Below are positions 1,501 to 62,500 of a stretch of 64,000 nucleotides of DNA, in pieces. Each line of letters begins with the position of its first letter. Positions within the stretch are counted from its first letter, which is position 1. The notes beneath the pieces were generated by a model, which had not been told where the DNA came from, searched no databases, and saw only the letters and a list, made by a program, of their open reading frames with translations. The stretch is from Haliotis asinina. Its lineage: Eukaryota; Mollusca; Gastropoda; Lepetellida; Haliotidae. The stretch is taken from positions 55,716,753-55,780,752 of the forward strand of contig NC_090281.1 in NCBI RefSeq assembly GCF_037392515.1, written 5' to 3'. The position numbers and the translations under genes are program-made.

Positions 1501-4500
1501 TTAATCCCTTTGTGTAAAGGTGTCCAGTTTGGAGTACGACTCCAGAGTTCCACTGCTGAGGTGGAATCCCAGTATTCCAGGATTAGAGTGACGTCTCGTT
1601 TTTCTCTTCAGACGCCCTGATCGACGTCCTGAAGAAGCAGGTCTGGTCTGACCCCTGTCAAGCAAGGTCTTCATGTCCACTACATCTGAGTCATAGTCAC
1701 TGGACATGTCTGTCCGCTGGGATGAACCCTCGCTATCTGTACTTACGTCCACGAAACTACTCCCGGGTTGCTGGAGATCTCGGGAGGTGGAGACTTCTGG
1801 AACTGAACACGCACCTGTCTGGGGAGGAGCCGTGCTAAGATGGCGGGATGAGTTCCCAGATCTCTCTGTATCTGTTCCTACTTCTGCTATACCGCTATCC
1901 ATGCGCTGTACCAGCCGTGACATTGCTGACTGTGCAGCGTCTTGCTGGACACAAGGGAGTCCGCTGTCATCTGAATCGTTACTTCCTACTCCTAAGGGTT
2001 CTTGGAGCATCAGCCTGTAGTCACCTGAAAGTGGTTCTGAGGCTTGGATACTTCCTCCCTGGTTCTGCTCTTTCATCTCTGAAATGGACACTGGAGGGCT
2101 GGGATTAGTCACCAAAGCTTCTTCACATTCAAACCCGTTATTGTTAGCAAACGGAGTTCCTCCTACGGAATCACCCGGATCCTCATTTCCACCTTCACGA
2201 TCTGATGGGGACGTGAACACCGGAAGGCCATTTCCACTGCTAGAAACAAAGTTAGATTCAGAATCATTCGGTACAAAATGCACTGGATTTGGACAAAATG
2301 GTTCAGCGTCTAATTCAACTACGCATGTTTCTTGTAACTGAGCTTTGTCACGTGTTTGATTCTGACCAACCACAAGGTCTACAGTCTGATTTGCTTCCGA
2401 CCCACCACCGATGCCGTAATGAATAAGGCACTGGCTACAAGACACCATTGGGACTTCATCACTGTAGGCCTGTCTCCTGGGAACAGAATTGGTAGATTCA
2501 GGTTCACTGGTGATGACAAATTCGATCTGTTTAGATAAGAGAGAGGGCGGTGGAATTTCCTTGCCACGTTTCATTTTCAGATCGGAACCTTCACAACGAC
2601 ACATCTGACAGAGGAAGTTTATTGTTTCAGATTTTTTTGGTAACTGTTTCCGTTTGTGAAGAATACATAATATTGCAAGTATGACCATGATCATTATCAC
2701 ACATACAATAATTATTGCAGTTGCCACTCTCGGGGGTATAGGGACGTTGTAGGACTCGCCATAAAGGAATGGTACAGATGAAATTATGTGGCCCGTGGAC
2801 ATTGTTGTTGACGACGTTGATGAAGATGCTCGGTTCTTCGCTAGGGACCCTTAAAATACAATGTAACAATGTAACAATGTGAACAAATGTAACCAATGTA
2901 ACTAATCGACAAATATAACATAGGTACCTAGATGCCATGGGGAAGAGATCGTATTTTTTGCTCCTTATTTACAGATAAACGCTACTCAAACCTCCTCCAC
3001 CCACACCCCTTCATCTCCAACCTTCTTTCGACTGCAAGAACTACCTTTAATATACACATTATTCCTATACTTCGCAAATAACAATCTTTATTTTATCATC
3101 ACGTTCATCACGATTCACGCTATCTACAAGACGATTTAAGCGCAAGTGATGCAAGACAGATAAAAGAAATATTTGTTTGAGAAGTGCTAACGTCTACAAA
3201 GAGAAAACAGTGCTAACCAGCAAGAAATCCCCAAACAGGCATGCACCTCATTTCTGGGTCCTTGCTCTTGGTCCGACACTCGTTCACCACCACGGTGACA
3301 TTCGGGTTGCCGGGGTAACAGTAAGAGCACTTGATGCACGTGTTGGGTAGGTTCGGGTGGCGGTAGTACCCTGCAAGAGGAAAGACAGATGTAAGGTTTT
3401 AACAGTTATAGCAGGATGCAGTTTAGCCCCTCTCCAGTGTGGGAAACGTTTTGGGGAGTATTGTTTTCCAATAAATATCACTCGACTGCAAAACCTGTTG
3501 CCGGAGCAGAGAAAACAAATTGCATTTCATGTGATTCCATTAAATGTCTCAGAAAATGCTTGCAAATAGAACTTTTGGATAAGGTGTTGAAAACTAAGAA
3601 AATAGTACGTCACAAGAAATATACTTTGCTTTGTTTTAGAAAAGTGTATTTAGATCCTAAGGTTTAAAGTAGAAAATATATCTGATTTTCCATAGGAAAA
3701 AAATACTCCATGTTGAATTTGGAATTTTGGTCCTGGATCATGAGTGTGTTTGGATTTAAGCCGCTTTTAGCAATTTTCCAAGCAATATCACGACCAAGGA
3801 CACCGGAAATGGACTTCACACAGTGTACCCACTTGGGGAATCGAACCTGGGTCTTCGGCTTGATGCTTTTACCACTTTTATGTCAAGAGTCTTCACAACT
3901 GCATGTGATGCTGCTGATGTTGCTGTTGCTTCCTAAATCAACTGTCTTACACTGATATATTATGTAAACCTATCTATCATAGCTCTACCTTCGATACAAT
4001 CTCCACATTTGTAGTCATGGGTGTCGCTGCACTTTGTCTCTACTGTCACCGCTTTCCCGCATCGACTGCACGGTATGCAGAATTCAGCTGACCAATGAGA
4101 AGAGTACATGTTTTTTGCACACGGTTCGCACTGAGTATCAGAGGTCAAAGTGCAGTGGCGCGACACAAAGGTTCCTGGGGAACAATGGGAACAGTTCTGA
4201 CATTTTAATCCCCCGACGGAATAAGTTCCAAGCTCACATGACCTGCAAACCGTGTTTGATTGGTTTGTACACGATTCGACCGACATGAATCCATCGCTGC
4301 ACTGTGAACACGGTTGACAGCCAAAACTTTTGTCCATGTAGTAATATTCTGGACAAGTGGAATTCTCCTCACACTGCAAATAGAAAATATGATGGATTTA
4401 AAATGTCATATCCAGTATATCCAAGGTGTTTAGCGTTGCATTATACCTGTGAGCTTATAACTGCGGTCTGGAAATATCATTCGAATCTCCGGCAGTGTTC

Positions 4501-14080: not shown

Positions 14081-14878
14081 CCTAGTACTTACAGTCTAAG
14101 TAAACTTAGTCTCAGTGTATATCGTTACATTCCACCACTGAGTCTAACAAAACCTAGTAGAAGGTCACGTCATCTAACCTTTGAGAGACCAATGACTGTC
14201 CAATCAAACACAAGATGGTTAAATAGATTTCACCAATCAGACAACAGCTACTATTTAGGGATCGGAGGGACTTTCAAAATATTCAGGTCACTGACACAGA
14301 TCTCTCCACGAACAAAAATCTGCATATAAAACACAGTTATTTGACCTGCAGTATATACGCTTTGGGGTTTCTGTTGATATGGTTACCATTAGCTAATATT
14401 TCCGCAAGATGACATCCTTGAATATTGCCCAAAACACTATTTTCAGCGACTGTTTACTCCCCTTTGTCATGGTTGTAACGTACGCCGTGAGCATCACCTG
14501 TAAGTGAGCATCTGCTAAATAGCATTCGGAACCGTTTGGGTACGAACCTTTTCCAGATAAAAAGTTCAAAAGGTATGTGCGAATGTCTACTTTCGCGATT
14601 TGTTAAGCTGTGTTCTGATTGGTCAATCTCAAAGGTTCCCTGATGCGACCTCCCATAACATTTTGTTATACTCAGTCGTGTAGTGTAATGAAAAGTACTG
14701 AGGATAAGTTTACTTAGACTGCTAGTACTTAAAGCGGCCATTCTTGATGCAAAAGACTTGGGTTTGATTCCTGACAATTGGTGCAAAGTGTAAAGCCCAT
14801 TTATGGTGTTCCCGCTGTGATATTGCTGGAATATTGCTAAAAGCGGAATAAACCAAACTCGCTCACTGAATCTAGAGA
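14070..14878 (+). repeat. SINE family B split by a MITE insertion
   Basis: The head GGAGGTGTAGCCTAGTACTTA ends at 14091 and resumes after the MITE at 14722-14731 as CTAGTACTTA + AAGCGGCCATTC, then GGGTTTGATTCCTGAC (B-box), GTGTAAAGCCCATTT, ATATTGCTGGAATATTGC and the CTCGCTCACTG tail. The 10-bp CTAGTACTTA belongs to the SINE and was duplicated on insertion. Confidence 0.85.
14092..14721. mobile_element. MITE with long TIRs and 10-bp target duplication (MULE-like)
   Basis: This 630-bp element starts CAGTCTAAGTAAACTTAGTC and ends with the inverse (AAGTTTACTTAGACTG). Similarity between the arms runs over about 130 bp, including the TCTAACCTTTGAGA-type block. It is flanked by a perfect 10-bp duplication CTAGTACTTA (14082-14091 and 14722-14731). 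Long TIRs and 9-11-bp duplications are typical of Mutator-like elements; that class is inference. It has no transposase frame. Confidence 0.85.
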
Positions 14879-14905: not shown

Positions 14906-17900
14906 TCACAAGTACTTCTCCAAGACTGCAATAGCTTTGCTAGAGGATGGTTGGTAGTGCTGCAGAAGCTGGATCAGCTCCTCCACAGTTGTTCCGTTCT
15001 GTTTCATCAGAGTCAGGATGTGAAACATCGGCCCGTCGTACATCTTACCTTTCCGGTGGTACCTACACACACATGGAGACATATCAACACTTCATTTATG
15101 AGAAGTAAGATTTATCAACACATCAAATACAACATGTATACAAATGGTTTAAAAATACAAAAACAACAGTCATCAACAAAAAAACTAGGAAAACCTGACT
15201 TTTGCCTCATTTGCACATCACCACCACGTGCACATTAAACTAGTAGGGAAAAGTCACCAACAATATAACGTTCTTACTCTTGGAATACTCAGGCTGGTTG
15301 ACCTCACTATGGGCCTTTTCAGTGATGCCAAACCCAAATTGGTGCAGTTAGGAATCTGAGCTAGAAATAGGAAAATATAGCAATTTTCCCAACAAATTAT
15401 GAATCCTTATGAATGCTTTTAAGGGATGAAACTATTCACTGACATTACACATAGAGATCCTTTTACAACTGAAACTGGTTTGCAGTAGTCGCCAGCAATG
15501 TTTGTGAGCGATAAGTGCATAAAATAAACAGCCATGGAATTTATTAGGCTGAGTAAGCAGCTTCTGGATTACTTTCTATGTGTAAACAACTTGAGAACTT
15601 CTGTAAACAAAGTGTTGTATTTATTTAATTATCATTATTGATGGTCATAGATGCCCTAGTCATCCAGAAAGTAAGTCTATCTTCATCTTTGTTGAATTTT
15701 TACAAAAATCAGAATGAGTTTGGCTTTGTCTGGATTGTGAAATTGACATGCATTTTTGGGGATCATCCCCAAAAAATTGGTAAGATTGGCATCCCTGCCC
15801 TTGACTCCTTTATGAAGGAAAATCCTGGAAACTTGTGAATGTGATGTGAAACCACAAAGACAATCTTACTCTAGGAAGGAGACAAAGTCCCTGTCATATC
15901 CCAGCAGCGGTGATGTGACAATGACATGCCATGATGCAAGTCCATCCTGCTCATCTCTGTCCAGCAGACGACAAAGAGTGTGGACATCTTCTCGTGTCTG
16001 CATTAGTCTGGCGTAGCCTTCCATCTTGTTCCAGGTGGGATGGGGTTCTGGAACACAGGTCAAGGACATTATTAGGTAATAAAGATCATATCGCCCTGCA
16101 CTGGTCACATTTACCCTGCAACAACTCCCATAAACTATGGTAACCTGGTAATGCTTCCTCTACAGAAACCTGGTAACATGTTGCGGAGATCACCATGACA
16201 ATACAGTAACAGTCGCTGATTTTCTTTTGTACTACATCTCAATTACATGAATATATGCTCATCATGTCAATCACTTGAATGTCTGATTTGATAATCAAAT
16301 AAAAGGCCATCATATAGCTGAAAAATTGCACAGTGCTGTTTTACAGTGGTCACCAGTGGTTTGTTGTAATGGTCACCATGACAACACTTGACAAGGAAAT
16401 AGCATCTGATCATCAGTCCAACTTACCGATAAGTAGGAATAGTCTGCATATGTGGTTACCATGACTACACCTACCCTGCAATTGCTCCAGATCTTCTGTG
16501 GCTGTAGTAACCAGGATGAGGGAGGTGTCTGGAACTGCTTGTGGATGGGTTCCCAAACTTCCTATGTATATGTTAAGAAAAGCTATTATCTAATTATTGC
16601 AATTTCCACATGAAACTATTCCACAAGATGGTATCATGCTAGTAACTAGTATCATGAAGGGACAGGTGCATCAGCAGAAATATACCTGGTTGTCTTGATG
16701 ACCTACCTGGCTGAGTGTGAGACAGTCTATCATAAGCCTCATCATCTGGTGATACAGGATGCTGTCCAACAGAACTATGGAGGGCAACTGAAGTATTTCG
16801 GGGAGGAAGTAATCCTAAAACAAGCAACAGTCACGTCCCATCATTCACAAGGAGACCAAAAACAAATGTTTATTCAAATTTGTGGTAGTCTAACTGTAAA
16901 CTAAATAAACTTATCTGTACCTAATGACTTGTCCACAGCCATCACAATATCCATCAGTGATTAAGCTACTGATAGGCTGATGTCAAACAAGTCAATGGGC
17001 ACAACACAAGAGATAACACAATCTCTTGACACTCTTTATACCTACAATGGACTAGGCAGGATCTAAAATATAACCAATTAACCACAGACTAACACTTGAA
17101 AAAGATACTACTTGAGTTAAAACTATAGACAATGACAACTTCAAATGAACCAAATCTTACATGACTTCATACCTGCCACATCCATAAGCAGATTTTTGTG
17201 AGAAAAAGCATTTTAATTTTAGCTACAGAGTGAAACACACCAACATGGCAAATTACTTGAAGCCATCTCAGTTTCTAAGCAATAGGGTAAGCGAGTGAGT
17301 ATAGAATTTTACTCCACTTTTAACAATATTCCAACAATACCACAGCAGGGGACACCAGAAATGGGCTTCGCACATTGTACCTATGTAGGCAATTGAACCC
17401 TGGTCTTCAGTGTGATGAGGGAACATATTTACATGGCATTACCTGAATAGAGTGACCACCCGTGAGACATGTGCTTCTTGACCACCAGCTTGAAGTGTCC
17501 TCTCTCCGTGACACCATCTGTTCGTCGGACGATCCAGTTGTATGACCCCTGGTGGAAGCGGTCAACATTGACCAGGTCCACTTGGCTGGGACCATCAGGC
17601 TTGCTGGAATACACTGCTGGATCTCCTGTTTTCGAGTCCTGCTTCAGCAGGACAAGATACTCGATGCCACATCCTGAACTGTTGGCCATCACTGATACTG
17701 TACTGCCTAAAGGTCAAGATCAGACTTTCACAGCACTTCCATGGCAACAGAAGAGATTAAATGTGGTATTAACGTCAGAGTCAAGCGTGTGTGTTCGGTT
17801 TATGTGTGATGATGCCAGTTTGATGATGATGATGATGAGGAGGAGGAGGAGGGTTTGAGGGACATTGTGTATTTCACCAGGATATTTAGTCTTTGATTGA

Positions 17901-20115
17901 AAGGTGTATGATTTGACTGATGAGCAGTCAGGGTTTCATAATTACGAAATTTGCCCACTAACATACCATGCTACTGGTTTCCTAGGCTATGAGGAAGACC
18001 ATGTTTTTTTCCCCGACTAAAGCTGACTTATCAATGGTAATCTGACATGGGCAGTCATAACAATAAACAAGGAGAAGTGGCATGGTTGGACAACTTGTAT
18101 ATGGCAGCTGAGAGTCAATGGATAATATGACGGGATTAACAATATAATGTAAAGTTGGATAAAGCACATTCAAAGGAATTTAAGTGATTGAGGACATACA
18201 CGTGCCATGCCTTCACAGTTGCTTTAAAAGGTCAAGGTCAGTATGTCAAAGTGCACTCTCATAGCAATAGCTTGGTGAGTTACAGCCTGTTTGATTCCAT
18301 TTAAGACAAATGAATTGCTAACTAACACAAAATCTAATAATTGCAACAAAACCAAATTTTGCACAGCCACTTGAAATCGACAGACCAACTCGGATGATGT
18401 GCAATTCATCGGTCTCAAATAGAATCAAGCGGACTGTAATATGAGTTTAACATCATGCTCCAGTGTGTGAAAGGAGTTGGGGGTGGGAGGAAAGAGGGTG
18501 GTGTCGGTTGGGTCTGTGTGTCAACATGTTTTCGTGTTTTTGCTAGTTTGGCTAGCGGAAGACCTTAGTTTCTCTGGTTTAAAACTTATCTACCAAAGAT
18601 CATCCGACAAGTCAAAACCATATACGACAGCAACACATTGGATGTAAGTAAGAATAAGAAGTAAGCAATGGCAGTTAAGTGATTAAAGATTTATACATCT
18701 CATGGCTGCAGGGGAATTCATTTAAAGTCGTTCCAAATCAGTCACTTCACAACTAAACACTTTAACCACTGATCTACTCAAATACCTGGAACCTACCTTT
18801 CTGAGCAAACCACTTGTGTAGCTTGTAACATCTCTGAGTGGCATTAGCCAGTCTTATGCTGACATTCCTCTGTACTGGAGGATCTACAGAAATGTACAAC
18901 ACAAACAGTATGAAACAATTCATAACTGAAAATATGTTCATAATATAAAAGTCTATAAACAAGCTGTACCAATTTGGAATCACACCTTGCTAATACACCA
19001 TGGTGTATGTGCTTCAACTACACCATGTCGTCAGTGATACCTTCTTTCATCAACCAATGATGGATTTATGCAAGAACTTGTGGTCCTAATAAAATGGAAC
19101 TTCTAGAATTGAACTACACTAACGTTAAGTGTGTAAATATATACAATTTTCAACAAATAAACCAACTTAATTTGAAAAAGGCCCCAGCGAGACCAGTGAT
19201 TCTGAACCTGGGGAAATCTAGACTTGCTTCATTTGGGATTCAACACTGCAGGGATTGCTGTGCTGTAGGGCTGCGCTCTGGGGAAAATAATGTGGTTCAG
19301 GGACAGACTGCTGGATTTTCATCAAATAAATTTTCCATGGTGCACTGGGTAACCTTTTCTTGGAGATTCATAAAATATGTTATCTTTTCTAAATATATTT
19401 TTTTCAAACCAACCCTTAAGCTGAAAGAATGTCAACAGCATCATCATCAGAAGCACTATTTTCCATATTTTATACTTTTTACACTGACACAACAAAGCTA
19501 GTTTTTTAAAAGTCATTGCTTGAGAAAGTCATGTTAATATTTTCACATCCTATGCCCCAGACACAGAATTAATGATTGTAATTTAACTTAAGACAGTCTC
19601 ACATATCTCTTATATTACTATCCACACAGCTAACCTTGCTCTTCTACATCAGTATCTGCAGCAGTTGATGATTTCTTTTTAACACAGATGAAAATAACAA
19701 CCACAAGGACGACTACAGCCAAGATCACTATCACTGGAAATAAACATTGTTAATTAACATGCATCAAATACAAAGAAACAGCTTTATTATGTAGGTGCAA
19801 TCAATCATTTTCTGATCTTTGGAAATGTGTGTTTTCTATATATTCAGCAGTATTCCAGCTATATGGCAGTGGTCTGTAAATAATCGAGTCTGGACCACAC
19901 GACGCAGCGATCAAAAGCATGACCATCAATCTGCACAAATGGGATACAATGACCTGAGACAACCAAGTCAGGGAGTCTGGCCACCCAATCCTGTTAGCCA
20001 CCTCTAATAACTAGCATCATTTGCCTAATATCATCTGTGAACCGGACCTTCACGGGTATAGAAATATGTGAGGTGAAATTAGGTAAAATAGTATTGCACT
20101 ATACTTCAATGAGCA

Positions 20116-20175
<60 letters not shown>

Positions 20176-20352
20176 AGTGAGCGTGTGAGAGTGTGTGTGA
20201 GCGTGTGCGTGTGCATGTGTGTGTCAGTGTGTGTGTGTCAGTGTGTGTGTGTGATATAAGTTCTTTTGAGCTTACTGACCAATGCAGGTCATGAAAATGT
20301 TGATGTTGCTTTTTTGTGTGTTGCTTTGTGTGTGAGAGAGAGAGAGAGAGAG

Positions 20353-20390
<38 letters not shown>

Positions 20391-23300
20391 CAGATGCAAG
20401 TCAGTTGTTAAGTCAGTGGGGTAGCCATGTTCAACTACAGCAAGTGTCTTGTTCTTCTAGTCCTATATAACCAACCCTACTGCAAACACACATGCGTCTA
20501 CTAGTGCATAAAAAAGACGAATTCACAGCTAAGCCCAAATCTGGCTAACTGCAAAGATTCCATGACTTACCTACAAGAACAATCGCCACTGTATCCAGAG
20601 CTATGGCATCACCGTCACCTGAAATACACAGTGATGTCCCTGTGATGTCTTCTCTTTGGGTTTGGCGATGGAGTTACAGGCAAGTTATCATGTGTTTCAG
20701 ATTCTTATAACATTATTTTTATAAGAGTCTGTCTGCTTCAAAGATGTAGCAATTGCTAGCATTCACTGACACAAAACCTATTAAATCATTTGTCATTGAA
20801 TTTGAAAAGAAACTTTCCAATTTGATATAGCTGTGAGATTTACAGGTATGTGCACTGTGTGCAGTTATTTCTGTATTAGAGGTATGGGTCATATGGTTCC
20901 AAATACTAATTAATTTGTCACCTGTCACTGTGGGTTTCGGACTAAAAAGTGAAAACTAGATGACAAGTGTTTGAGAGTACTTGACAAATCAGCAGCAGTC
21001 CCTTCACTGGCATTTCCTCAATCCTCTAAAACAGTATATACCACTCTCAGTAGAAAAACTGTGTTCCACTTTAATCAAAACAACAATTATAAGTCTTAGT
21101 ACAACCATACTATATAATAACCTTGACCTTTGATATACATGGGAACAACATTAGTGATTGAGTAAGTTTAGTTTTACGCTGTACTCAGCAATATTCAAGC
21201 TACATCGCCACGGTCAGTAAACAATCAAGTCTGGACAAGACAATCCCGTGATCAACAGCATGAGCAGTGATCTGCACGATTGGGAACCAGTGACATGTGT
21301 AAACCAAGTCAGCAAGCCTGACCACTTGATCCTGTTAGGTGCCTCTTACGACAAACACTGTCACAGAACAGGAAGAAGACAAAGCAACTGATATGCACAT
21401 GTACCATGAAAAAATATTTGAAACTTTCTGCCATGCACGGTTGAATCTTATTTTGTTGACAGAATCTAAAACTATGGGTAAGAAACAGTTCATCACTGTT
21501 CACCACACCACCCAGTATGGAGAGGAAGTATTGTATTGAATTTCAAGATCTGCTTCAGAAATGCAGCATTCCCAGTCATAGTCAGAGTTGTTGCCATGGA
21601 AACTTAATTCTTTTTAAAGGTCACATGCAACCCAAAAATCAAACATAATTTAAACACAATTATCACTTATTCATGACATATAATATACACTGATGCTTGT
21701 CCAAAAAACAAATAAACAAAATTCCAAGTGTTCAATTGCGATTCAAAATATTTTATAGTTGGGTTTAGTTCCCTCGAAATGAAGTCCTCGGGAGACCGCA
21801 CCCAGTCATAGCGGGGTCGGTGTACACTCAAGTGCAACGACGGCTTCCGTCTGCCTGGTTCATTTGCTGAAACACCGAGAGCTCATTGTGTGTACAGAAA
21901 GATGATCTGTTTGATGGGCATTTTAGAAATATGGCGAGTCATAAGAAAGTAAGGTTCTCTATGGATAACAACTTCTTTTATTGTACTTGATGTGTTGTTT
22001 CAGTATGGATTCATATACCGTTGTCAAACAAAGTCATATACACTAGAAGAAGTTGTTATCCATAAAGAATGTAAATAGAGATGTTGGGTCTGGTAAATAC
22101 ATGTTCTCTGAATTTGCGTTTGATCGAATCAAAAATCATCTCAGTAGAGATGGTGAACTACGATGTGGCTGGAAACTGTCATCCGTCCAAGTCAGAGCAG
22201 GACTTAAAACTGACAAGGGTTTGCACCAGTTTCCTTCAGATCCAGTCATTCGAGGAAAAATGGTCATAGTTTGTTTGCAACCCACAGACATAAAAACATG
22301 TCATGTGTACAAGTATCACACCTGCCTAATTACATAATGTGGCAGAGACAGGACTCAGGTGCACCAGTCATAAATCAATTTATTTTGTTTATGGCATATA
22401 GTCTGATAGGAGTTAAGTACTGTTTCAAGCTCTATTCACTGCGCATGCGTTATGGGTGCAGCGCAGCACAGCTGTTGAAACCAGTTTTTCCCCCAGCGTT
22501 GGGGGAAATTTAGTGAATCGTTTGAACTCCAATTTCACAGGCATTTTTTTCATTGCATTTTTTTCAACTTTATAGGCTGAATTGGCATTTTTCATGATTT
22601 GTTTCGGTAAGTGTATACTGAAAGGAATCGGACTCTGCAAACTTGTGTTTTACGTTGCAGGTGACCTGTAAAATTCCAAACTATCAAAAAACTCACCAAC
22701 AGCTATTTTACAAGTTTGGTGAAGTAATATTGTATGTTCTTCAAAATCTGCTCTAGAAACATGCACAACCACTATTTCACTTCAGTCAAAGTTGTTGCCA
22801 AGGAGATTCAAACCTTTGTTTTTACCAGAAACCTAAACCAGCAAAAGGTACCATTCAACCATTAGAGATAGCCATGTTCCAAGTTGGTGAAGAAATAGTG
22901 TATGGTTTTCAAGATCAGCACTAAAAACGACATCATACATGGCCAGATGCAGGAACAAATAGGGGTGGGATTTAGCAAGGACACATCCAAATATAAAGAT
23001 CCAGAGATGCTACCTTTTTGACTCCTTTTGACCAAAACCACATCAAATGTTTAACTTCAGATAAGTCACCAAAACCAACAATAAATTCACTAAACTGATG
23101 GTAACAGTGTGGTCTCACCTATACAGTGTGAAAACTGATGGTCCAAGTGTGGTCTCACCTATACAGTGTGTAAACTGATGGTCCCTGTGTGGTCTCACTT
23201 ATACAGTGTGTAAACTGATGTTAACTGTCTGGTCTCACCTATACAGTGTGTAAACTGATGGTCCCTTTGTGCTCCCACCTATACAGTGTGCAAACTGATG

Positions 23301-26165
23301 GTCCAAGTGTGGTCTCACCTATACAGTGTGTAAACTGATGGTAACTCTGTGGCCTCACCTATACAGTGTGTAAACTGATGGTAACTGTAAGATCTCACCT
23401 ATACAGTGTGTAAACTGATGGTCCAAGTGTGGTCTCACATATACAGTGTGTAAACTGATGGTCACTCTGTGGTCTAACCTATACAGTGTGTAAACTGATG
23501 GTCCAAGAGTGGTCTCACCTATACAGGGTGTAAACTGATGGTAACAGTGTAGTCTCACCTATACAGTGTGTATACTGATGGTCCCAATGTGGTCTCACCT
23601 ACACAGTGTGTAAACTGATGGTCCAAGTGTGGTCACACCTATACAGTGTGTAAACTGATGGTCACTGTGTGGTCTCACCTATACAGTGTGTAAACTGATG
23701 GTCACTGTGTGGTCTCACCTCTACAGTGTGTAAACTGATGGTCCCTGTGTGGTCTCACCTATACAGTGTGTAAACTGATGGTCCAAGTGTGGTCTCACCT
23801 ATACAGTGTGAAAACTGATGGTCCCTGTGTGGTCTCACCTATAAAGTGTGTTAACTGATGGTCCCTGTGTGGTCTCACCTACACAGTGTGTAAACTGATG
23901 GTAACTGCGTGGTCTCACCTATACAGTGTGCAAACTGATGGTAACTGTAAGATCTCACCTATACAGTGTGTAAACTGATGGTAACTGTAAGATCTCACCT
24001 ATACAGTGTGTAAACTGATGGTCCAAGTGTGGTCTCACATATACAGTGTGTAAACTGATGGTCACTCTGTGGTCTAACCTATACAGTGTGTAAACTGATG
24101 GTCCAAGAGTGGTCTCACCTATACAGGGTGTAAACTGATGGTAACAGTGTAGTCTCACCTATACAGTGTGTATACTGATGGTCCCAATGTGGTCTCACCT
24201 ACACAGTGTGTAAACTGATGGTCCAAGTGTGGTCTCACCTACACAGTGTGTAAACTGATGGTAACTGTGTGGTCTCACCTATACAGTGTGTAAACTGATG
24301 GTCCAAGTGTGATCTCACCTATACAGTGTGTTAACTGATGGTCCCTGTGTGGTCTCACCTATACAGTGTGTAAACTGGTGGTCCAAGTGTGGTCTCACCT
24401 ATACAGTGTGTAAACTGATGGTCCCAGTGTGGTCTCACCTATACAGTGTGTAAACTGATGGTCCAAGTGTGGTCTCACCTATACAGTGTGTAAACTGATG
24501 GTAACTGTGTGGTCTCACCTATACAGTGTGTAAACTGATGGTCCCTGCGTGGTCTCACCTATACAGTGTGTAAACTGATGGTCCAAGTGTGGTCTCACCT
24601 ATACAGTGTGTAAACTGATGGTCCCTGTGTGGTCTCACCTATACAGTGTGTAAACTGATGGTCACTGTGTGGTCTCACCTATACAGTGTGTAAACTGATG
24701 GTAACTGTCTGGTCTCACCTATACAGTGTGTAAACTGATGGTCCAAGTGTGGTCTCACCTATACAGTGTGTTAACTGATGGTAACTGTGTAGTCTCACCT
24801 ATACAGTGTGTAAACTGATGGTCCAAGTGTGGTCTCACCTATACAGTGTGTTAACTGATGGTAACTGTGTGGTCTCACCTATACAGTGTGAAAACTGGTG
24901 GTCCAAGTGTGGTCTCACCTATACAGTGTGTAAACTGATGGTCCCAGTGTGGTCTCACCTATACAGTGTGTAAACTGATGGTCCAAGTGTGGTCTCACCT
25001 ATACAGTGTGTAAACTGATGGTAACTGTGTGGTCTCACCTATACAGTGTGTAAACTGATGGTCCCTGCGTGGTCTCACCTATACAGTGTGTAAACTGATG
25101 GTCCAAGTGTGGTCTCACCTATACAGTGTGTAAACTGATGGTCCCTGTGTGGTCTCACCTATACAGTGTGAAAACTGATGGTCACTGTGTGGTCTCACCT
25201 ATACAGTGTGTAAACTGATGGTAACAGTGTAGTCTCACCTATACAGTGTGTATACTGATGGTCCCAATGTGATCTCACCTATACAGTGTGAAAACTGATA
25301 GTCCATGTGTGGTCTCACCTATACAGTGTGTAAACTGTTGGTCCCAGTGAGGCTGTGGCTGGTCGATGCACGTGATGTTTGAGGACTTTGAAGCTTTATA
25401 ACCCACAGAGCACTCAAGGAAGCAGGTGCTATAGACAATGTTGTCATCGCTGCAGACAGCTTTTCCATTACGAGGGATCCACTTCACACAGGCTGTTATC
25501 ACATATTGAAATGTAAACAGTTTTGATTGCCATTGTCCCCCTCAAAAAAGATATTGAATAAACTGCACTTGTTTCCTAAGACTCTTTTGACAGTAAACCC
25601 ATGCATTTCTTTGGAATTTTAGGTTGCCAAAAACTCACTGAGGATTTTACAAAATATTTCCAACAAGTTTCAAATAAGAACAAAAAATTTATATTGATTT
25701 TAGCAATAAACTTATAAACTTATACTAATTTCTTGAAGGAGGAATTCAAAGTCCCCTGTTTGAAAAGAAACAGACCTATTCCATAATTATTCTGTCAAGG
25801 GATTCATAAACAAAGTATTGAGAGGCATGCACGCACACATCCATGCATGCAAAGTCACATTAAAGAATATTCAACAGGCAAGCAAAATACTGTTCACACA
25901 GGCTCGGTTTGTTGCTCAGCAACGTTTATATACCGGGTTGATATGCTGCATACATACAGGGTTTGTCAAAGGAGGTGCTGTGGCAGTGAGCCCTTCGTCC
26001 ATCTGGGAGAGCAGGGATCTGTCGACATTGTTCTTGAAGGTGTTCTTCATATAGCCTGGGATTGTTGAAAACCTTATGGGGGCAAATACGGCACAACTCG
26101 CAATAACTGGGGCGGTTCGGCAACTTGTAGTAGCTAAACATGGAAATGATAATCATGATAATCAT

Positions 26166-26216
<51 letters not shown>

Positions 26217-27390
26217 TGTCATCATCACTGTCAGCAACAGCAGCAGGAGCAGCAGCAGCAGCAGCACTGTTATGTGTTTTGTAACATTACTTACACCCGT
26301 TACTTATATGTCTTTTGTACACCTTGAATGTTTTGATAATAATAATAATACACCTTATTATGCACAGAAGGGTTTACCTCTCTGACTTTGGGATACTTGA
26401 GAAAACAAATATGTTTCCATGATTTTTTAACAAAAACGATATTAAATGATATTAATGATTGACAAGTAAAAAAGTCACAGCTTATTACCAGCATTTGGGA
26501 ACAGATTTAACCCAGAATCACTACAGATGTACCAAATAGTGTCCTAAGTGTTGGCAAATAGTTTTACACTTTCAGAACTCCTTTGTCAAGTAGTTAGTGA
26601 TTCAGATTTTACACTTGCTGCATAGAAAATACACAGAATGGGAATATGAATTATCTAATCAAGCTCCAAATAAGATTCAGCCCATGTGGGTGGCTGTATT
26701 TTTGGGGTCGGTATTATTAATGCTGAGTATTTCATTTTCTGTTACTGTTTTCAAATATGTGGGTATTTCGGTGGTCTTACTTACCTAACTAATATGACAT
26801 TGAAAATGTTTTAAACCTTTTGTCTATCTAACATTTTTTAATGGGTAATTGGTAAGCTACAGTTATTTTTCAAGGTGTAATTATAAATTTTCGATGCATA
26901 TTTTACAAGAGTACATGGCTCATCAGGGTCACTGATCTAACATCCAATATTTGTACCATAAATATGCTGTGATTTCAAGGGACCTGATTGGCTAAACAAG
27001 CCTTTTGTTTCATTTATATTTTTTATAAGTCTGCAGAAGAATACTTACAACTTCTTGTCTGAGCAGTGCGCCTGAACAACCTGAAACATACCAATGGGCT
27101 ATAACTGTGAGCTGTGGTTGGTTGAATAAAACAAACAAGTGTATGGTCTTAGACAGTGGCATATTGTTTATAATATACAGGTCTGTTACTTTCATAATCA
27201 TAATGCAGGTCCATCCCATTTCATAACTTATACTTATAGGTCCACGTTGTTTGTAAGATACAGGTCCAATTCTATATATCATTATACATACAATGATTAC
27301 AATGAATTTCAGTATTACCTTGCCAAAGTTAAGCAACAGCAGTATAATGGCGCCAGTCACGAGTGGCAGCAGGCCCCCACATAGCTTCAT
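14906..27390 (-). CDS. TNFR-like/sushi/death-domain transmembrane receptor, 493 aa, 12 coding exons
   Basis: Exons in transcript order: 27319-27390, 27049-27080, 25958-26133, 25319-25492, 20571-20618, 19635-19733, 18797-18883, 17443-17706, 16707-16814, 16475-16561, 15870-16047, 14906-15062. All are GT-AG; the phases fit throughout (0, 2, then 1 until the last intron, which is 2), giving 493 codons plus TGA. Residues 1-24 are a signal peptide (MKLCGGLLPLVTG...). Residues 27-93 form a cysteine module beginning FYYKLPNRPSYCELCRICP, close in pattern to the last module of the neighbouring TNFR gene. Residues 94-151 are a 6-Cys sushi domain. The membrane segment is at about 161-185, followed by KKK. 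Residues 201-317 are an unrecognised, probably beta-rich cytoplasmic module; 318-382 is a Pro/Ser linker. Residues 383-493 look like a death domain, with SWHVIV near helix 2 and TTVEELIQLLQ near the end. The likely role is a surface receptor coupling a ligand to death-domain adaptors, by inference from domains. The individual modules are recognised by pattern, not by database search. Confidence 0.85.
17290..17425 (-). repeat. tRNA-derived SINE, family B
   Basis: GCGAGTGAGTATAGAATTTT, then CACCAGAAATGGGCTTCGCA, TGTACCTATGTAGGCAATTG and AACCCTGGTCTTCAGTGTGA are the family B landmarks. It abuts the 3' end of the receptor's exon at 17443-17706. Confidence 0.75.
19838..20065 (+). repeat. SINE family A copy
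   Basis: TATTCAGCAGTATTCCAGCT, GTGGTCTGTAAATAATCGAG, TCTGGACCACACGACGCAGC, CAACCAAGTCAGGGAGTCTG and ACCTTCACGGGT. It lies in an intron of the death-domain receptor gene. Confidence 0.8.
20118..20255 (+). repeat. (GT)n microsatellite
   Basis: A pure GT run of about 55 bp followed by interrupted GTGTGTCAGT and GAGTGTGTGTGAGCGTGTGC segments. Intronic. Confidence 0.95.
20333..20388 (+). repeat. (GA)n microsatellite
   Basis: About 56 bp of GA repeats interrupted once by AAAAAA. Same intron as the GT repeat. Confidence 0.95.
21160..21350 (+). repeat. SINE family A copy
   Basis: GAGTAAGTTTAGTTTTACGC, CTCAGCAATATTCAAGCTAC, CAATCAAGTCTGGACAAGAC, AAGTCAGCAAGCCTGACCAC. Intronic in the receptor gene. 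Confidence 0.85.
21618..22667 (+). mobile_element. Non-autonomous DNA transposon with THAP-like remnant
   Basis: The ends are imperfect inverted repeats: AGGTCACATGCAACCCAAAA on the left against AGGTCACCTGCAACGTAAAA read back from the right. Inside, a plus-strand frame at 22053-22337 contains GLHQFPSDPVIRGKMV, which resembles the FHxFPxDPxxRKKW core of THAP DNA-binding domains found in P-element and Kolobok-type transposases. The first Trp of the core is replaced by Met and upstream frames are interrupted. No clear target duplication is visible. It sits in an intron of the receptor gene. Confidence 0.5.
23092..25345 (-). repeat. 40-bp minisatellite repeating the sushi exon's 3' end and splice donor
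   Basis: About 56 copies of a 40-bp unit (plus strand GGTCTCACCTATACAGTGTG + TAAACTGATGGTCCAAGTGT). On the minus strand each unit is about 30 bp of exon-like sequence (CAGTTTACACACTGTATAG) followed by GTGAGACC, identical to the true exon end and donor of the sushi exon (25319-25492). Larger duplications are visible: a segment from about 23370 recurs at +600 bp (15 units), and one near 24360 recurs at +520 bp (13 units). The unit is not a multiple of 3, so it could not extend the protein in frame. Confidence 0.95.
26167..26275 (+). repeat. (ATC)n and (CAG)n microsatellites
   Basis: A run of about 50 bp of ATC is followed by CAGCAACAGCAGCAGGAGCA-type repeats to about 26270, just upstream of the acceptor of the TNFR-like exon. 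A short TAA run is at 26335-26350. His or Ser homopolymer frames here are artefacts. Confidence 0.9.
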
Positions 27391-27825
27391 GCCAGTGACC
27401 GACCACTGTACAGACCCTCATCTAACCTGTAACAGACCACAGATATATACCTAGCTTCATGCCAGTGTCCGACCAGTGACTGTACAGACCCTCATCTAAC
27501 CTGTAACTGACCAAAGATATATACCTAGCTTCATAACAGTGTCCCGCCACTGTACAGACCCTCATCTAACCTGTAACAGACCACAGACATATACCTAGCT
27601 TCCATAGAAGGGCAATATATGCCAGTGTCCGACCACTGTACAGACCCTCATCTAACCTGAAACTGACCATAGACATATACCTAGCTTCACAACAGTGTCC
27701 CACCACTGAACAGACCCTCATCTAACCTGTAATAGATCACAGACATATACCTAGCTTCATAGCAGTGTCCTGCCACTGTACAGAGCGTCTTCTAACCTGT
27801 AACAGCCTCAGGTATATGTGCCTCG
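27385..27825 (-). repeat. ~70-bp minisatellite repeating the start-codon region
   Basis: About six copies of a ~70-bp unit directly upstream of the receptor's start codon. On the minus strand each unit ends near GCATGAAGCTAG, copying the authentic GGCATGAAGCTA (27390). Most copies keep ATG, and then read a 12-codon frame (MKLGIYLWSVTG) to a stop. One unit carries an extra insertion near 27605. Confidence 0.85.
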
Positions 27826-36130: not shown

Positions 36131-39100
36131 CTAGCATGTTTCTTGTTTTGTACTTGGAATGAGAGAGATCAATAAGGATGGAATCTGTCCACTGACAGTG
36201 TCAGTTTGGGACTTGGAAGTAAGGTTTAAATCTGGCGCATCATGGAATGTGATCTGTACAAGACCATGTGAGTAAAAACAGACCTCAGAACGTCCTCCCA
36301 GACCAGTGTAACACTGCGGACCCTCAAGATCAACATACAAGGTGTGCATAGTGTTCTTCTCAATCAGCACCTTTCTCTGAAAATACACCCGGAAAACTTC
36401 CTCGTTGGTACGTCTATGAACACCTTTCCTTTTCATCCAGATGTCAAGGTCATCAATTTTGTCGAGGACTTTGGTGTTCAATTTACAAATAACCTCCTTG
36501 TCTTTGAACACTTGAGAGTGGATTTTGTACAAACACGTTTTGCCTGTGCTGGTTCCAAACAGACTGAAGCCATGCAAATACAAGTCTTCATTTGTTGTAA
36601 AGGACACAGCATGGTAACTGTCATTCTTACTGCACGTCTCTTCAGATGTGCATCGGAATCGGGGCACTGTGCGAATGTTTTCATGCGGACCTCTACGCTT
36701 CATGTTACAAATTTTAGACTTTGCCTTATTTGGTGGTGCAACAACATGTTCAAGAATCATGCATCTCTCTTCTAAGGACAAAATTTTCATTTTGGACACC
36801 TCTGTCACTAAATAGTTGGGTGGAAGTTGCGAGAAGCGAACTTCCCATAAAATGTCACCAAGGACCTTCCGCTTGTTCTTCCCTGTAGCCTTGACCTTGT
36901 TTTTAACACACTGATGAGTTGCCCACGTCATGACACCCGTCAATACAGACTTCTCCAATTCAGCTGATGCTGTTTTTCGTTCCGCTTCCTGTAAGTCCCT
37001 TCTAACCCCGAGTTTGACATGTAAATTATCAGATGACACAACTTTCTTCAGACAACCAGCACACAGTGCTGTGACTTCTTTAGATTCCAACACGCTGGTT
37101 GCATGATCTTCGATATATTCCAGGGCTTTAGTCTCCAGCATGGGCTCGTTGAAGAGATGGGCCTGCTCCATGACAACACAGGCACTTTCAATGGACATGT
37201 GGGCATCAATGTAGGCGACTATGGCTGTAAGTAGTGGCTCTACATTGTACTTCTTGGCCACATACATCATCTGCATGACGGTGTCAGGTGTCACATCCAG
37301 CTCCTCTGTGTACACATACCTACAACAGTAACCCAGCAGAGTTAGCTGACATAAGCTGTGTGTGGTGTGTGTACCTACAACAGTAACCCTGCAGAGTTAA
37401 CTGACATAAGCTGTGTGTTGGTGTGTGTACCTATAACAGTAACCCTGCAGAGTTAACTGACATAAGCTGTGTGGGGTGTGTGTACCTACAACAGTAACCT
37501 GACAGAGTTACCTTACATAAACTGTGTGGTGTGGTGTAGCGTGTGTATGTGTGTATACCTTGCAGAAATCTTGCATGAGTAATAGGTTTAAGCTGTCGTG
37601 TGTGACTGTCTATGTGTGTGTGCGTGCGTGCGTGCATGCGTGCGTGCCTACAACAGTAACCTTACATAGTTAACAGACATGAGCTGTGTGTGGTGTGTGT
37701 GAGTACCTACAACAGAAATCTTGCAAGAGTAATACGCTTGAGTTGTGGTGCGTGTGCATGTGTGTGTGCCTACAACAGTAACCTTACATAAGTAACAGAC
37801 ATAAGCTTTGTGTGGTGTGTGTATGTGTACACCTACAACAGAAATCTCACACAATTAATACAAATAAACTGTGAGTGGTGTGTGTATGTGCGTGCATGTG
37901 TGTGTGCGTGTGTGACATTGTGAGCAACAATCCTTCCTGTCAAGGTACACACAATTCCCATTTGTTGCCGAGGACCTCCAAATGTAAATAGCCAGAGGTA
38001 GTGGCCTTTATATTTGATATGATTTATAATGTGATGCTATAATGGAAGCCAGTTATATTACTGTAAATCTTACTTTCAAAAGTGCATGCACAACATATTT
38101 TACACCTGGCTGTATTCTTCAAAATGAATGGACAAAGACACTGAGACTTCTACATTCCTGGTGAGTGAGTGAGTTTAGTTTTACGCAGCACTCAGCAAAA
38201 TTCCAGCTATATGGCGGCGGTCTGTAAATAATCAAGTCTGGACCAGACAATCCAGTGATCAACAACATGAGCATCAATCTACGCAATTGGGAATCGATGA
38301 CATGTGTCAACCAAGTCAGCAAGTCTGACCACCCGATCCCGTTAGTCATCTCTTATGAGAAGCATAGTTGCCTGTTATGGCAAGCATGGGTTGCTGAAGG
38401 CCTATTCTACCCAGGGACCTTCATGGGTCACATTCCTGGTGAAACCTCTGGGATGATCATTAGTCAAATGATCAATGATGAAATACACTTGTAATCAGCA
38501 CCGATTCATGAACTTCTCTCCAAACACATCCATTGTGTCAGCCATTTTGACATCCTGTATGTTATGTGAACCTAACATGATGTACTGACTTACTGAGGTA
38601 CTAAATTTTGCAGACAAGAAAAACAGATTTAGAGTTATCTTCCATCAGTTTGCATTCACAAGACATCTGTAATTTCCATCTTTACTACCATTAAGTACCA
38701 AATCAGTTTGACATTCCCAGTGGGATGTATAAAAAATGATACTAGCTTGTAAGTGGGATAGATTGAAAATAACAAAGGAGCGCTCAGCCAATCCGAAAGA
38801 AACATTTATGTGTGAGGTGATATAAATGCTAATATGACTTCTCATTTTGAAGATTTATTCCATTTTAGGCTAGAGCTTGTGAAAGTGGAAGTGACTTCTT
38901 AAATTACTCACCTTAAAAAGGCTTTGAAAGTGCCCAGCTCGATGTCTGGGATTTTGATTGTACTGTCATGTTCTGCCATAGGCCCAAGCAGCATTATGTA
39001 GAACACATCAGATACTGCCAGGAGCTTGTATTTGTGTGCTCCATACCTGTCCTCATTCACTCCTACAGTGAAGAAGACATCACAGGCCACCTGATTGGTC

Positions 39101-53500: not shown

Positions 53501-56500
53501 CAAACTCAGGCCTTCAGTGTGACCAGCAAATGCTTGAACCACTGAGGTACCCAAATGCCCCTGTTTACATGCAGAGAGAAAAGCATCTAAATACATCAAC
53601 ATTAGTTTTTAAAAGTTCAAAACTAAGTCTCGTTGACATATGTCATATTTGGGATTTCACTTTCTTAGTAAAGTACAAATTCTAGTACTTTTTTTGGTTG
53701 AGTCCCATCCGGGATTCGAACCCGCACCCTCAGAGTAAGGCACCTAATCGCCAGCACACAAAGTCAGCCGCCTAGCCCGCTCAGCCACCGCGACTTCCAC
53801 AAAAATGAAAGTCGGACAACTGGTAGTTTAGACTGCGTAGGTTGTGTACCCCTCTGATGAGTGTAAATTGGCACGGCTCCCAAGGCCGAAAGCTATGATT
53901 ACACGATGCCATTTAGAAAGTGGTCAAATGCGACATATGTCATATTTGGGATTTCACTTTCTTAGTAAAGTACAAATTCTAGTACTTTTTCCGGTTGAGT
54001 CTCATCCGGGATTCTTTACTAAGAACCGAAAAAAGTACTAGAATTTGTACTTTACTAAGAAAGTGAAATCCCAAATATGACATATGTCGCATTTGACCAC
54101 TTTCTAAATGGCATCGTGTAATCATAAGTCTTGTTGAGTCATTAAAATATCATAAGCAGCTACATATACTGATTGGTGAGAGAGTGTAGTATGAAAGCTT
54201 AACATGAATTATTTTGCATTTAACCTGGTATTAAGTGGTATACCAGCTTTATCAAGGCAGCCTATAATAGACTGAGATCAGGATGTCGACAGCATCATAA
54301 ATGGCCTCTGACGATAAGTATGAGTAGTAGGGACTTAGTAAGCCCTCAGCGCCTAACACTCTGTGTTGGGATTTTGTTTTCTGCAGTCAGCACTGACAAA
54401 CTGTGTGATGGCAGCTTGCAAATAATTAAGTCTGGACAAGATTATCAAGTGACTGATATTATCAACAACATACAATTATCTGTAATGTGATGACAAGTAT
54501 TAACCGTGTCATCAAGCAGAGCCTCTGATCCATAAATATGAAGTTGAACAATTATTATATGGGTACATGTACTTATATAGCACTATAGTCCATTCCGAAC
54601 ACTCAAAAAGCTTCCTTGTTTTTCCCTCAATCATTGGATGTTATTTCAGCAAAGAATTTAACAATTATTATATGGGTACGTGTATCTATATAGCACTATA
54701 GTCCATTCCGAACACTCAAAAAGCTTCCTTGTTTTTTCCTCAATCACTGGATGTTATTTCAGCAAAGAATTTAACAATTATTATATGGGTACATGTACTT
54801 ATATAGCACTATAGTCCATTCTGAACACTCAAAAAGCTTCCTTGTTTTTTCCTCAATCACTGGATGTTATTTCAGCAAAGAATTTAACAATTATTATATG
54901 GGTACATGTACTTATATAGCACTATAGTCCATTCCGAACACTCAAAAAGCTTCCTTGTTTTTCCCTCAATCATTGGATGTTATTTCAGCAAAGAATTTAA
55001 CAATTATTATATGGGTACGTGTATCTATATAGCACTATAGTCCATTCCGAACACTCAAAAAGCTTCCTTGTTTTTTCCTCAATCACTGGATGTTATTTCA
55101 GCAAAGAATTTAACAATTATTATATGGGTACATGTACTTATATAGCACTATAGTCCATTCTGAACACTCAAAAAGCTTCCTTGTTTTTTCCTCAATCACT
55201 GGATGTTATTTCAGCAAAGAATTTAACAATTATTATATGGGTACATGTACTTATATAGCACTATAGTCCATTCTGAACACTCAAAAAGCTTCCTTGTTTT
55301 TTCCTCAATCACTGGATGTCATTTCAGCAAAGAATTTAACAATTATTATATGGGTACATGTACTTATATAGCACTATAGTCCATTCTGAACACTCAAAAA
55401 GCTTCCTTGTTTTTTCCTCAATCACTGGATGTTATTTCAGCAAAGAATTTAACAATTATTATATGGGTACATGTACTTATATAGCACTATAGTCCATTCC
55501 GAACACTCAAAAAGCTTCCTTGTTTTTCCCTCAATCATTGGATGTTATTTCAGCAAAGAATTTAACAATTATTATATGGGTACGTGTATCTATATAGCAC
55601 TATAGTCCATTCCGAACACTCAAAAAGCTTCCTTGTTTTTTCCTCAATCACTGGATGTTATTTCAGCAAAGAATTTAACAATTATTATATGGGTACATGT
55701 ACTTATATAGCACTATAGTCCATTCTGAACACTCAAAAAGCTTCCTTGTTTTTTCCTCAATCACTGGATGTTATTTCAGCAAAGAATTTAACAATTATTA
55801 TATGGGTACATGTACTTATATAGCACTATAGTCCATTCTGAACACTCAAAAAGCTTCCTTGTTTTTTCCTCAATCACTGGATGTTATTTCAGCAAAGAAT
55901 TTAACAATTATTATATGGGTACATGTACTTATATAGCACTATAGTCCATTCTGAACACTCAAAAAGCTTCCTTGTTTTTTCCTCAATCACTGGATGTTAT
56001 TTCAGCAAAGAATTTAACAATTATTATATGGGTACATGTACTTATATAGCACTATAGTCCATTCCGAACACTCAAAAAGCTTCCTTGTTTTTTCCTCAAT
56101 CACTGGATGTTATTTCAGCAAAGAATTTAACAATTATTATATGGGTACATGTACTTATATAGCACTATAGTCCATTCTGAACACTCAAAAAGCTTCCTTG
56201 TTTTTTCCTCAATCACTGGATGTTATTTCAGCAAAGAATTTAACAATTATTATATGGGTACATGTACTTATATAGCACTATAGTCCATTCTGAACACTCA
56301 AAAAGCTTCCTTGTTTTTTCCTCAATCACTGGATGTTATTTCAGCAAAGAATTTAACAATTATTATATGGGTACGTGTATCTATATAGCACTATAGTCCA
56401 TTCCGAACACTCAAAAAGCTTCCTTGTTTTTTCCTCAATCACTGGATGTTATTTCAGCAAAGAATTTAACAATTATTATATGGGTACATGTACTTATATA

Positions 56501-59500: not shown

Positions 59501-62500
59501 CAGCATCACAGAACATCATCAGCCTCACAGAACATCACCAGCCTCACAGAACATCATAAGCATCACAGAACATCATCAGTATCACTTACAACACTATCAG
59601 ACACCATGGCACAAGACATCTAACAAAACAGTCGACAGAACAGCACTAGATATAAAAGTATGCAATCTACATAGCATGTCACCAACACAGGCTTTTTGCA
59701 GTTGTTCATTCTGACACATTTGCAAACAGTGTACAGGTGACTTCAGTTTCAGAGAACCATTTACATATACCAAAACTGAAAAGATGACAAGCATACACTG
59801 TTACTTGTTCACTGTTTCTGTGTGGGCTTCACATATCCCGGCCAACACGTCCCGTCCTTCCACTTACCGTAACACTTGCGACCATTTTCAGACATCACAA
59901 GTCCAGTTCCTCGACACCGACACTTGTAGGAACCATATGTGTTCTTACATAAATCTTGACATGGGGAAAATCGAATACACTCATTGATATCTGAAATAAT
60001 ACACAGACTTATCAGTATCTTGACATCGTGACCCATCTGAGATTAAGTTTTGAATGGTATTTAGGAGTGATAAGGGGAACAACTAAATTCTGAAATGGAA
60101 CTTGTGAGTTCAAAGTGAAATCATTTGGTGAAGGAGAACAGATATACTAAGAAATATTGTGTTCTTTACAAAACAGAACTTGACATTCATATAGCCCCTA
60201 ACGCTTTGCTGTAATACTCCATAAAATTGATAATAGCAGAGTAAAACACAACTGACTCGCTCACTCACTCACTCACTCACTCACTCACTCACCTTGAGCT
60301 GGAAGGGAATGTAATCTGCTTTAGTTGTTACCTACCAACACATTTCTTTGTGTCATAGTGGTATTTTTCAAATCCAGCTTTCTGACATTCACAGTTGAAG
60401 GAGCCGATAGTATTGATGCAGACGTCATCACAGCCGCCGTTGTCAGTGAGACACTCATCCTCATCTGCAGAAGACACATCTGCTCACAAATCTTACTCTC
60501 CATTTTTAACATGGATTTGGAATTTGGGCAACTGACCAAAATAAGATTTCAAAATGAATAAAGAGAGAGGGAGTTTTTCAGACCTTGAACAAGAAAATAC
60601 ATGCAACATTAAAACGTCCTGAAAGGTAAAAGCTGTAAAGGAACATTTTGAAAGTGCAGTTTCAAGAATCAATTACTACCTTAAACAGCCAGTCCATTAA
60701 TTACACCTTTCTTCTTGTTTGCACTTTTTCGATCCCCAATTTTGTCCCCTTACCTACTACCAGCAATTAAAAAGAAAAATATATATATATTTCAAAAAGA
60801 ATATACCTAGTTTTTACCAACCTACATGCAATTTTGGGTAAAATGTCTGTACCCTCCCCTCTCCCCTCCACAACAAAGGAAACCATGAGGAGAATATGTA
60901 TGTAAGTCATACCAATACATTCCTTGCCTCCCTGGGTCACGACGTAGCCAGTTGGGCACGTGCAGTGTGCTCCGCCAACTGTGTTGACACACTCGTGCGC
61001 GCAGCCGAAGTTGTTGTCTTCACATTCGTTAATGTCTGCAACATTGATTCTTGGTTTAGATATGCATATTGCAATGGATAATTTACATGCCACACTGACA
61101 TATTTCCGAACTAGTACTTTTAGCTAGTATTTATTATTTCAAATCCTACATGCAGTCATGAGGATTACCCGACCAATGTCTTCAGATAGTTACACAGAAC
61201 AGGTTGGTTTGGGTGTATGTTACATGGTGAAGTAAATTAGCATATAATGTGAGTGAGTGAGTGAGTGAGTGAGTGAGTGAGTGAGTGAGTGAGTGAGTGA
61301 GTGAGTGAGTGAGTGAGTGAGTGAGTGAGGTTCTCAGCAATATAGCAGCTATATGGCAACACTGTAAATAATCAAGTCTGGACTAGACAATCCAGTGATC
61401 AACAATATGAGCATTGATCTACATGCTCAAGGTGCTGGTAATTGTTTCCCTCAATTACTGGATGTCAATCTCAACGTCACTTCATATTATCAATCCTCAT
61501 CTCCCTGGGGAGTATACAACTCTTGCTGTGGCTAGGTGCACTGAGTTTATTGTGGTTCTCTCCTCTTAATGAGGTACCCAGTTCACAGCTGGGTGGACTG
61601 GGACACATAGTCACAGTACTTTGTCCAAGTTTACTGCACGTTGCTGTACCATCCTATCTAGTTAGTTGCCTCTCATGACAGTTACAAGCAGGCATGGATA
61701 ACTGAAGATCTTATGTGAATCTCACCTGTGTGATGTTGTCCTGACTTGTGTCAGACCAACACATACTTGTGAATCTCACCTGTGTGATGTTGTCCTGGGT
61801 TGTGTCAGATCAACACATACTTGTGAATCTCACCTGTGTGATGTTGTCCTGAGTTGTGCCAGACCAACACATACTTGTGAATCTCACATAAGTGATGCAG
61901 TCCTGGGTAGTGCCAGACCAACACATACATTTGAATCTCACTAATGTGATGTTGTACTGGATAGTGTCAGACCAACACATACTTGTGAATCTCACCTGTG
62001 TGATGTTGTCCTGGGTTGTGTCAGATCAACACATACTTGTGAATCTCACATAAGTGATGCAGTCCTGGGTAGTGTCAGACCAACACATACTTGTGAATCT
62101 CACTGATGTGATGTTGTCCTGAGTTGTGCCAGACCAACACATACATTTGAATCTCACTAATGTGATGTTGTACTGGATAGTGTCAGACCAACACATACTT
62201 GTGAATCTCACCTGTGTGATGTTGTCCTGAGTTGTGCCAGACCAACACATACATTTGAATCTCACTAATGTGATGTTGTACTGGATAGTGTCAGACCAAC
62301 ACATACTTGTGAATCTCACCTGTGTGATGTTGTCCTGAGTTGTGCCAGACCAACACATACATTTGAATCTCACTAATGTGATGTTGTACTGGATAGTGTC
62401 AGACCAACACATACTTGTGAATCTCACCTGTGTGATGTTGTCCTGGGTTGTGTCAGATCAACACATACTTGTGAATCTCACTGATGTGATGTTGTACGGA

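Follow-up and report, generated by a model that had tools for sequence, protein, structure and literature searches.

Does the gastropod mollusc Haliotis asinina encode a receptor in which a sushi domain stands between a TNFR-like module and a death domain? The question is raised by a gene on the minus strand of a 64,000-nucleotide stretch of its genome (NCBI RefSeq assembly GCF_037392515.1, contig NC_090281.1, positions 55,716,753 to 55,780,752), here called the window, whose numbering is used throughout. The reading we favour, and regard as reasonably probable, is that of a divergent type I TNFR-type death receptor assembled by exon shuffling, with the predicted order signal peptide, a single divergent cysteine-rich domain (CRD) of the TNFR type, sushi domain, membrane span, beta-sandwich-like module, linker and C-terminal death domain. 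The features of the gene, with the means by which they were identified in brackets, are as follows.

27382..27805, minus strand: 70-bp tandem repeat entering exon 1, with start-codon context
27319..27390, minus strand: exon 1, start codon and most of the signal peptide, residues 1-24 (script)
27049..27080, minus strand: exon 2, end of the signal peptide and first Cys of the six-Cys module (script)
25958..26133, minus strand: exon 3, TNFR-like six-Cys module, Cys 46, 49, 52, 71 and 85 (Cys 30 lies in exon 2)
25319..25492, minus strand: exon 4, six-Cys sushi domain, about residues 94-151, phase 1-1 (Pfam Sushi)
23091..25349, minus strand: 40-bp minisatellite of the exon 4 3' end and splice donor, 55 copies past the real one
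20571..20618, minus strand: exon 5, juxtamembrane stretch and start of the membrane span (script)
19635..19733, minus strand: exon 6, membrane span and KKK stop-transfer (script, hydropathy 4.0)
18797..18883, minus strand: exon 7, start of the cytoplasmic module (script)
17443..17706, minus strand: exon 8, cytoplasmic module, six-strand beta sandwich model of low confidence
16707..16814, minus strand: exon 9, linker with DDEAYDRL (script)
16475..16561, minus strand: exon 10, linker (script)
15870..16047, minus strand: exon 11, N-terminal half of the death-domain-like region (script, hhalign)
14906..15062, minus strand: exon 12, C-terminal half of the death-domain-like region and stop (script, hhalign, model)

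A script check of every exon edge found that the joined frame of the 12 exons is open for 493 codons and ends with a TGA stop at 14906, that all 11 introns have GT-AG borders, and that the phases agree across all joins, which bears out the original prediction of 12 phase-matched exons and 493 codons. Exons 4 to 10 are phase 1-1 throughout, the usual arrangement of shuffled extracellular modules. With domain edges assigned by ourselves, the protein is laid out as a signal peptide (residues 1-28), a six-Cys module (29-93), a sushi domain (94-151), a membrane span within 152-189, a cytoplasmic module (201-317), a linker (318-382) and a C-terminal domain (383-493). The signal-peptide-like N-terminus, the six-Cys module, the six-Cys sushi domain, the membrane span with its KKK and the C-terminal region are thus all present as that prediction had claimed. 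Neither AATAAA nor ATTAAA occurs within 1 kb downstream of the stop. At the level of sequence, both the gene and its parts are confirmed as real, the joining of its exons being predicted.

The sushi domain and the membrane span are firm predictions. The sushi segment scores 21.8 bits with Pfam Sushi (cut-off 20.7) and has the expected six Cys with W..C at the end, that is, a Trp before the last Cys; two further sushi exons in the window, which score 39.6 and 36.4 bits, share its extra Cys pair. It counts against the assignment that the full protein reaches only 15.3 bits with the same model, below the cut-off. A 19-residue window at residues 164-182 has a mean hydropathy of 4.0 and is followed by KKK, and the signal-peptide-like N-terminus and this one span together give a single-pass topology, as judged from sequence features and hydropathy.

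The identification of the C-terminal region is carried by profile-profile comparison. With hhalign, this region scored 23.3 over 69 columns against 11 death domains, a match which on our reading covers helices 1 to 5 and places the query Trp on the helix-2 Trp. None of 300 shuffles reached 23 (maximum 18.6), a separate set of 60 shuffles had a maximum of 17.2, and the best of 45 real-protein controls, consisting of 42 segments of the HSP70, BTB and TNFR-tail open reading frames of the window and three helical proteins, scored 14.2. When the 11 death domains were left out in turn, they scored from 28.1 (Fas) to 70.7 (RIPK1), and the C-terminal region therefore falls just below the most divergent true death domain. 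DED and CARD profiles of three sequences each gave 8.1 and 11.2, within the range of their own shuffles; neither a CARD nor a DED was thus matched by hhalign with these small profiles. Exon 12 alone was modelled by AlphaFold as three helices with a mean predicted local distance difference test score (pLDDT) of 79.7.

Several results weigh against a death domain at this position. Pfam Death was not listed for the C-terminal 111 residues at E up to 10, in a search whose filters drop most matches above E 0.1, and a PDB sequence search matched no death domain. Pairwise death-domain scores are weak, the best being IRAK1 (z 2.9) and IRAK4 (z 2.4), with 5 of the 11 under 0.6, and the APAF1 CARD gave z 1.2. 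Built into a HMMER profile, these death domains ranked the query first in a set of 3002 sequences (the query, 3000 shuffles and one reversed sequence, of which 2542 were reported), at 7.2 bits with the next shuffle at 6.7; we do not use this result as proof because the score is only 7.2 bits and is carried by TTVEELIQLLQ. NCBIfam gave two matches, both far below cut-off, and a VIA second look at the exon 12 model alone, in which one chain was compared, gave no match. On balance, the prediction of a C-terminal death domain has the backing of the hhalign comparison but not of Pfam.

The six-Cys module is a plausible divergent CRD and the weakest named part of the protein. Its Cys residues at 30, 46, 49, 52, 71 and 85 have the spacing C-x15-C-x2-C-x2-C, which up to the fourth Cys fits what we take to be the TNFR domain pattern. 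A tblastn search of the window with the 493-residue protein gave a match in a neighbouring minus-strand TNFR gene (3368-3318, E 0.65), in which YYKLPNRPSYCELCRIC of the module is paired with YYRHPNLPNTCIKCSYC of that gene's fourth CRD. Of 2000 full shuffles, 1 scored as high as this match, and of 2000 shuffles with the Cys fixed, 19 did; the other three CRDs of the neighbour scored no better than shuffles against the module. For the third CRD of EDAR, whose letters were confirmed against PDB 7x9g, the score was reached by 12 of 2000 full and 61 of 2000 Cys-fixed shuffles. A motif YY..PN.P..C..C..C is common to the module and the neighbour's fourth CRD, and in part to EDAR; the TNFR label, which rests on this short motif, is plausible. 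A mixed CRD profile gave the module 14.0, which was reached by 3 of 150 full shuffles.

Alternatively, the module may be an unrelated disulphide-rich or zinc-finger-like fold, which would make the protein a sushi-plus-death-domain receptor outside the TNFR superfamily. We consider this rather unlikely, although it draws on the very results that count against a CRD: in a Pfam search with the segment, zf-met (E 0.048) did better than TNFR_c6 (E 0.2), both being below cut-off; the loops between the later Cys residues are long, at 18 and 13 residues; and the score of 14.0 with the mixed CRD profile was equalled by 89 of 150 shuffles when the Cys were held fixed. A C-x2-C...H-x4-C pattern inside the module also fits such a fold. 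What argues for a CRD nonetheless is the position of the six Cys behind a signal peptide, together with the motif common with the neighbour's fourth CRD and partly with EDAR. The interpretation put forward originally is supported for the sushi domain and the membrane span, and for the death domain by hhalign but not by Pfam, while its TNFR label is reduced to a plausible one.

Between the membrane and the C-terminal domain, the module of exons 7-8 was modelled as a six-strand beta sandwich with low confidence, and sequence comparison gave no support for an Ig or FN3 identity. A UPA domain, as in UNC5, was rejected for these exons: the local score of the UNC5B UPA was reached by 999 of 2000 shuffles, its global comparison was matched by 77 of 2000 shuffles and showed a meaningless end overlap, and in hhalign 53 of 100 shuffles did as well. 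The motif DDEAYDRL in the exon 9 linker resembles what we take to be a hemi-immunoreceptor tyrosine-based activation motif (hemITAM).

Intron 4 is 4.7 kb long and holds a 2.3-kb array of the 40-bp minisatellite, which starts inside exon 4 and continues beyond the real exon end. Its unit consists of the last 32 bases of exon 4 (29 of 32 matching) followed by the intron start GTGAGACC. GTGAGA stands at 51 of the 56 donor positions, with the real donor counted in, and across the array the six donor columns are conserved at a mean of 98.5% versus 92.5% for the other columns. Judged by its letters, the array would qualify as a mirage, that is, tandem copies across an exon-intron boundary with splice signals, as boundary arrays of this kind are called in amphioxus (PMC3087553, PMC3902484). 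The reported amphioxus cases (Adh3, globin and PGBD5) are likewise minisatellite-like boundary copies with AG/GT signals, whereas here the 55 extra copies lie at the donor of a sushi exon and in a mollusc, which would extend mirages beyond amphioxus, their host in these two papers. A role of mirages in intron gain has been suggested in one of the two, and an AGGT duplication model is described in PMC4974935. The array would also be a natural test of how splicing picks the first among dozens of near-identical donors.

In predicted translation, all 56 insert lengths give an identical 165-residue product, and so does retention of the intron. The locus might therefore mainly yield a soluble decoy, any array donor or intron 4 retention leading to one 165-residue secreted ectodomain, and the conserved GTGAGA is in keeping with such use of the array donors. 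We nevertheless regard this as improbable: amphioxus mirages reportedly seem not to disturb regular splicing (PMC3087553, PMC3902484), for which reason we do not favour a role of the array in decoy production, possible though it is, and a transcript with the premature stop that this entails may be degraded. Slightly less probable still is that two genes are present, one for a secreted protein with CRD and sushi domain (exons 1-4) and another for a death-domain protein (exons 5-12), or else that the gene is decaying. The length of intron 4 and its array would suit a boundary between genes; the phase 1-1 join, however, keeps a single frame with no stop, and exons 5-12 start with the membrane span and show no signal peptide, no search for an alternative first exon having been made. 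The least probable of the readings is the most elaborate, namely a class of receptors that would recognise a bipartite ligand with one EDAR-like CRD plus a sushi domain and would signal via an intracellular Ig-like module and a death domain; the array, variable in length and with 55 decoy donors, would set membrane receptor versus soluble decoy per allele or per cell.

If the locus encodes a TNFR-type death receptor, its cysteine-rich and sushi domains could together recognise an extracellular ligand, either a trimer of the TNF family or a molecule bound to a surface. Ligand binding would cluster the receptor, the clustered death domains would recruit an adaptor of the FADD, CRADD, EDARADD or MyD88/IRAK type, and this recruitment might lead to NF-kB signalling or caspase activation. 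We infer an immune role, and the original description as a lineage-specific innate immune receptor is likewise an inference.

Like the death receptors of the TNFR superfamily (EDAR, TNFR1, Fas and p75NTR), the protein would be a type I membrane protein with a cysteine-rich ectodomain and a C-terminal death-domain-like region, and its six-Cys module holds a motif that resembles EDAR CRD3. Unlike these receptors, it would have one divergent CRD only, a membrane-adjacent sushi domain, and a beta-sandwich-like module between the membrane and the death domain. UNC5-type ZU5-UPA-death receptors also combine a membrane span, a cytoplasmic beta-rich module and a C-terminal death domain, but UPA is without sequence support in this protein. 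Some likeness to the death domains of IRAK/Pelle and MyD88 may be seen in the top pairwise scores of IRAK1 and IRAK4, whereas MyD88 (z -0.6) and Pelle (z 0.5) are unremarkable, and none of the pairwise scores is strong enough for a class to be assigned. IRAK/Pelle and MyD88 are, moreover, soluble kinases or TIR adaptors, unlike this receptor. The amphioxus TNFR-caspase and other hybrid receptors reported in PMC2575513 likewise join a TNFR-type ectodomain to a new cytoplasmic effector via domain shuffling; their effector, however, is a caspase, and the words sushi and CCP are absent from the main text of that paper.

No description of a TNFR-sushi-death receptor was found in the titles and abstract openings listed by searches of open-access literature, supplements excluded. 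This agrees with the initial statement that no receptor with this domain order had been described, which has to be qualified in that hybrid TNFR receptors are on record; given such domain-shuffled receptors as the amphioxus TNFR-caspase (PMC2575513), the surprise is smaller than that statement implied. If real, the predicted receptor would represent a new way for invertebrates to connect recognition by a complement-type domain with the output of a death domain. Molluscs are reported to have TNFRs, some with death domains (PMC4979521), and the TNFR set is reportedly expanded in oysters (PMC4979521, PMC4346834).

The neighbouring TNFR gene has exons at 1504-4397, its first exon not having been found. 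It shows three clear TNFR repeats (83.8 bits) and a fourth, divergent CRD (18.1 bits, E 0.0038, below the cut-off of 29.4), and Pfam detected no death domain in its long cytoplasmic tail. The two genes are on the same strand and about 10 kb apart, so that it could be traced whether the receptor arose from a local duplication with exon shuffling. The dispersed repeats of the window seem similar to repeats of abalones. Other features of the window are the following.

36.1-39.2 kb, minus strand: BTB-BACK-PHR gene
43.7-45.6 kb, minus strand: HSP70 open frame of 652 residues
50.6-63.3 kb, minus strand: EGF, sushi and ephrin-receptor-like exons, which may be one gene

Other arrays in the window also lie at exon boundaries or carry splice-like signals. 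The 70-bp units at 27382-27805 contain acceptor-like TGTTACAG|G and donor-like AAGCTAG|GTATAT. At 61714-62591, a 54-bp array begins at the donor of an EGF exon, with GTGAGATTCAC and close variants repeated, and at 37317-37537 a 55-bp array ends at the acceptor of a BTB-BACK-PHR exon, its units ending in TGTTGTAG|GTA or TGTTATAG|GTA. Among the 17 arrays of the window, enrichment of minisatellites at splice junctions was not significant, either for arrays that contain or abut a junction (3, with 3.5 expected) or for arrays with an edge within 35 bp of one (4, with 1.6 expected, P 0.075); the 49 junctions used were entered by hand, some of them with an accuracy of a few bases.

The search for relatives among viral and prokaryote contigs gave 1 and 3 stretches, respectively, that matched a pattern, none of them a relative, which is what one would expect of an animal gene. 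Beyond the stop of the gene, at 14409-14499, the plus strand has a stretch resembling a signal peptide that starts with ATG and has GTAAGT after it; it was noticed by eye and may be due to chance. Lastly, ARAGORN predicted a tRNA-Thr (tgt) of 95 bases at 53700-53794 on the minus strand.

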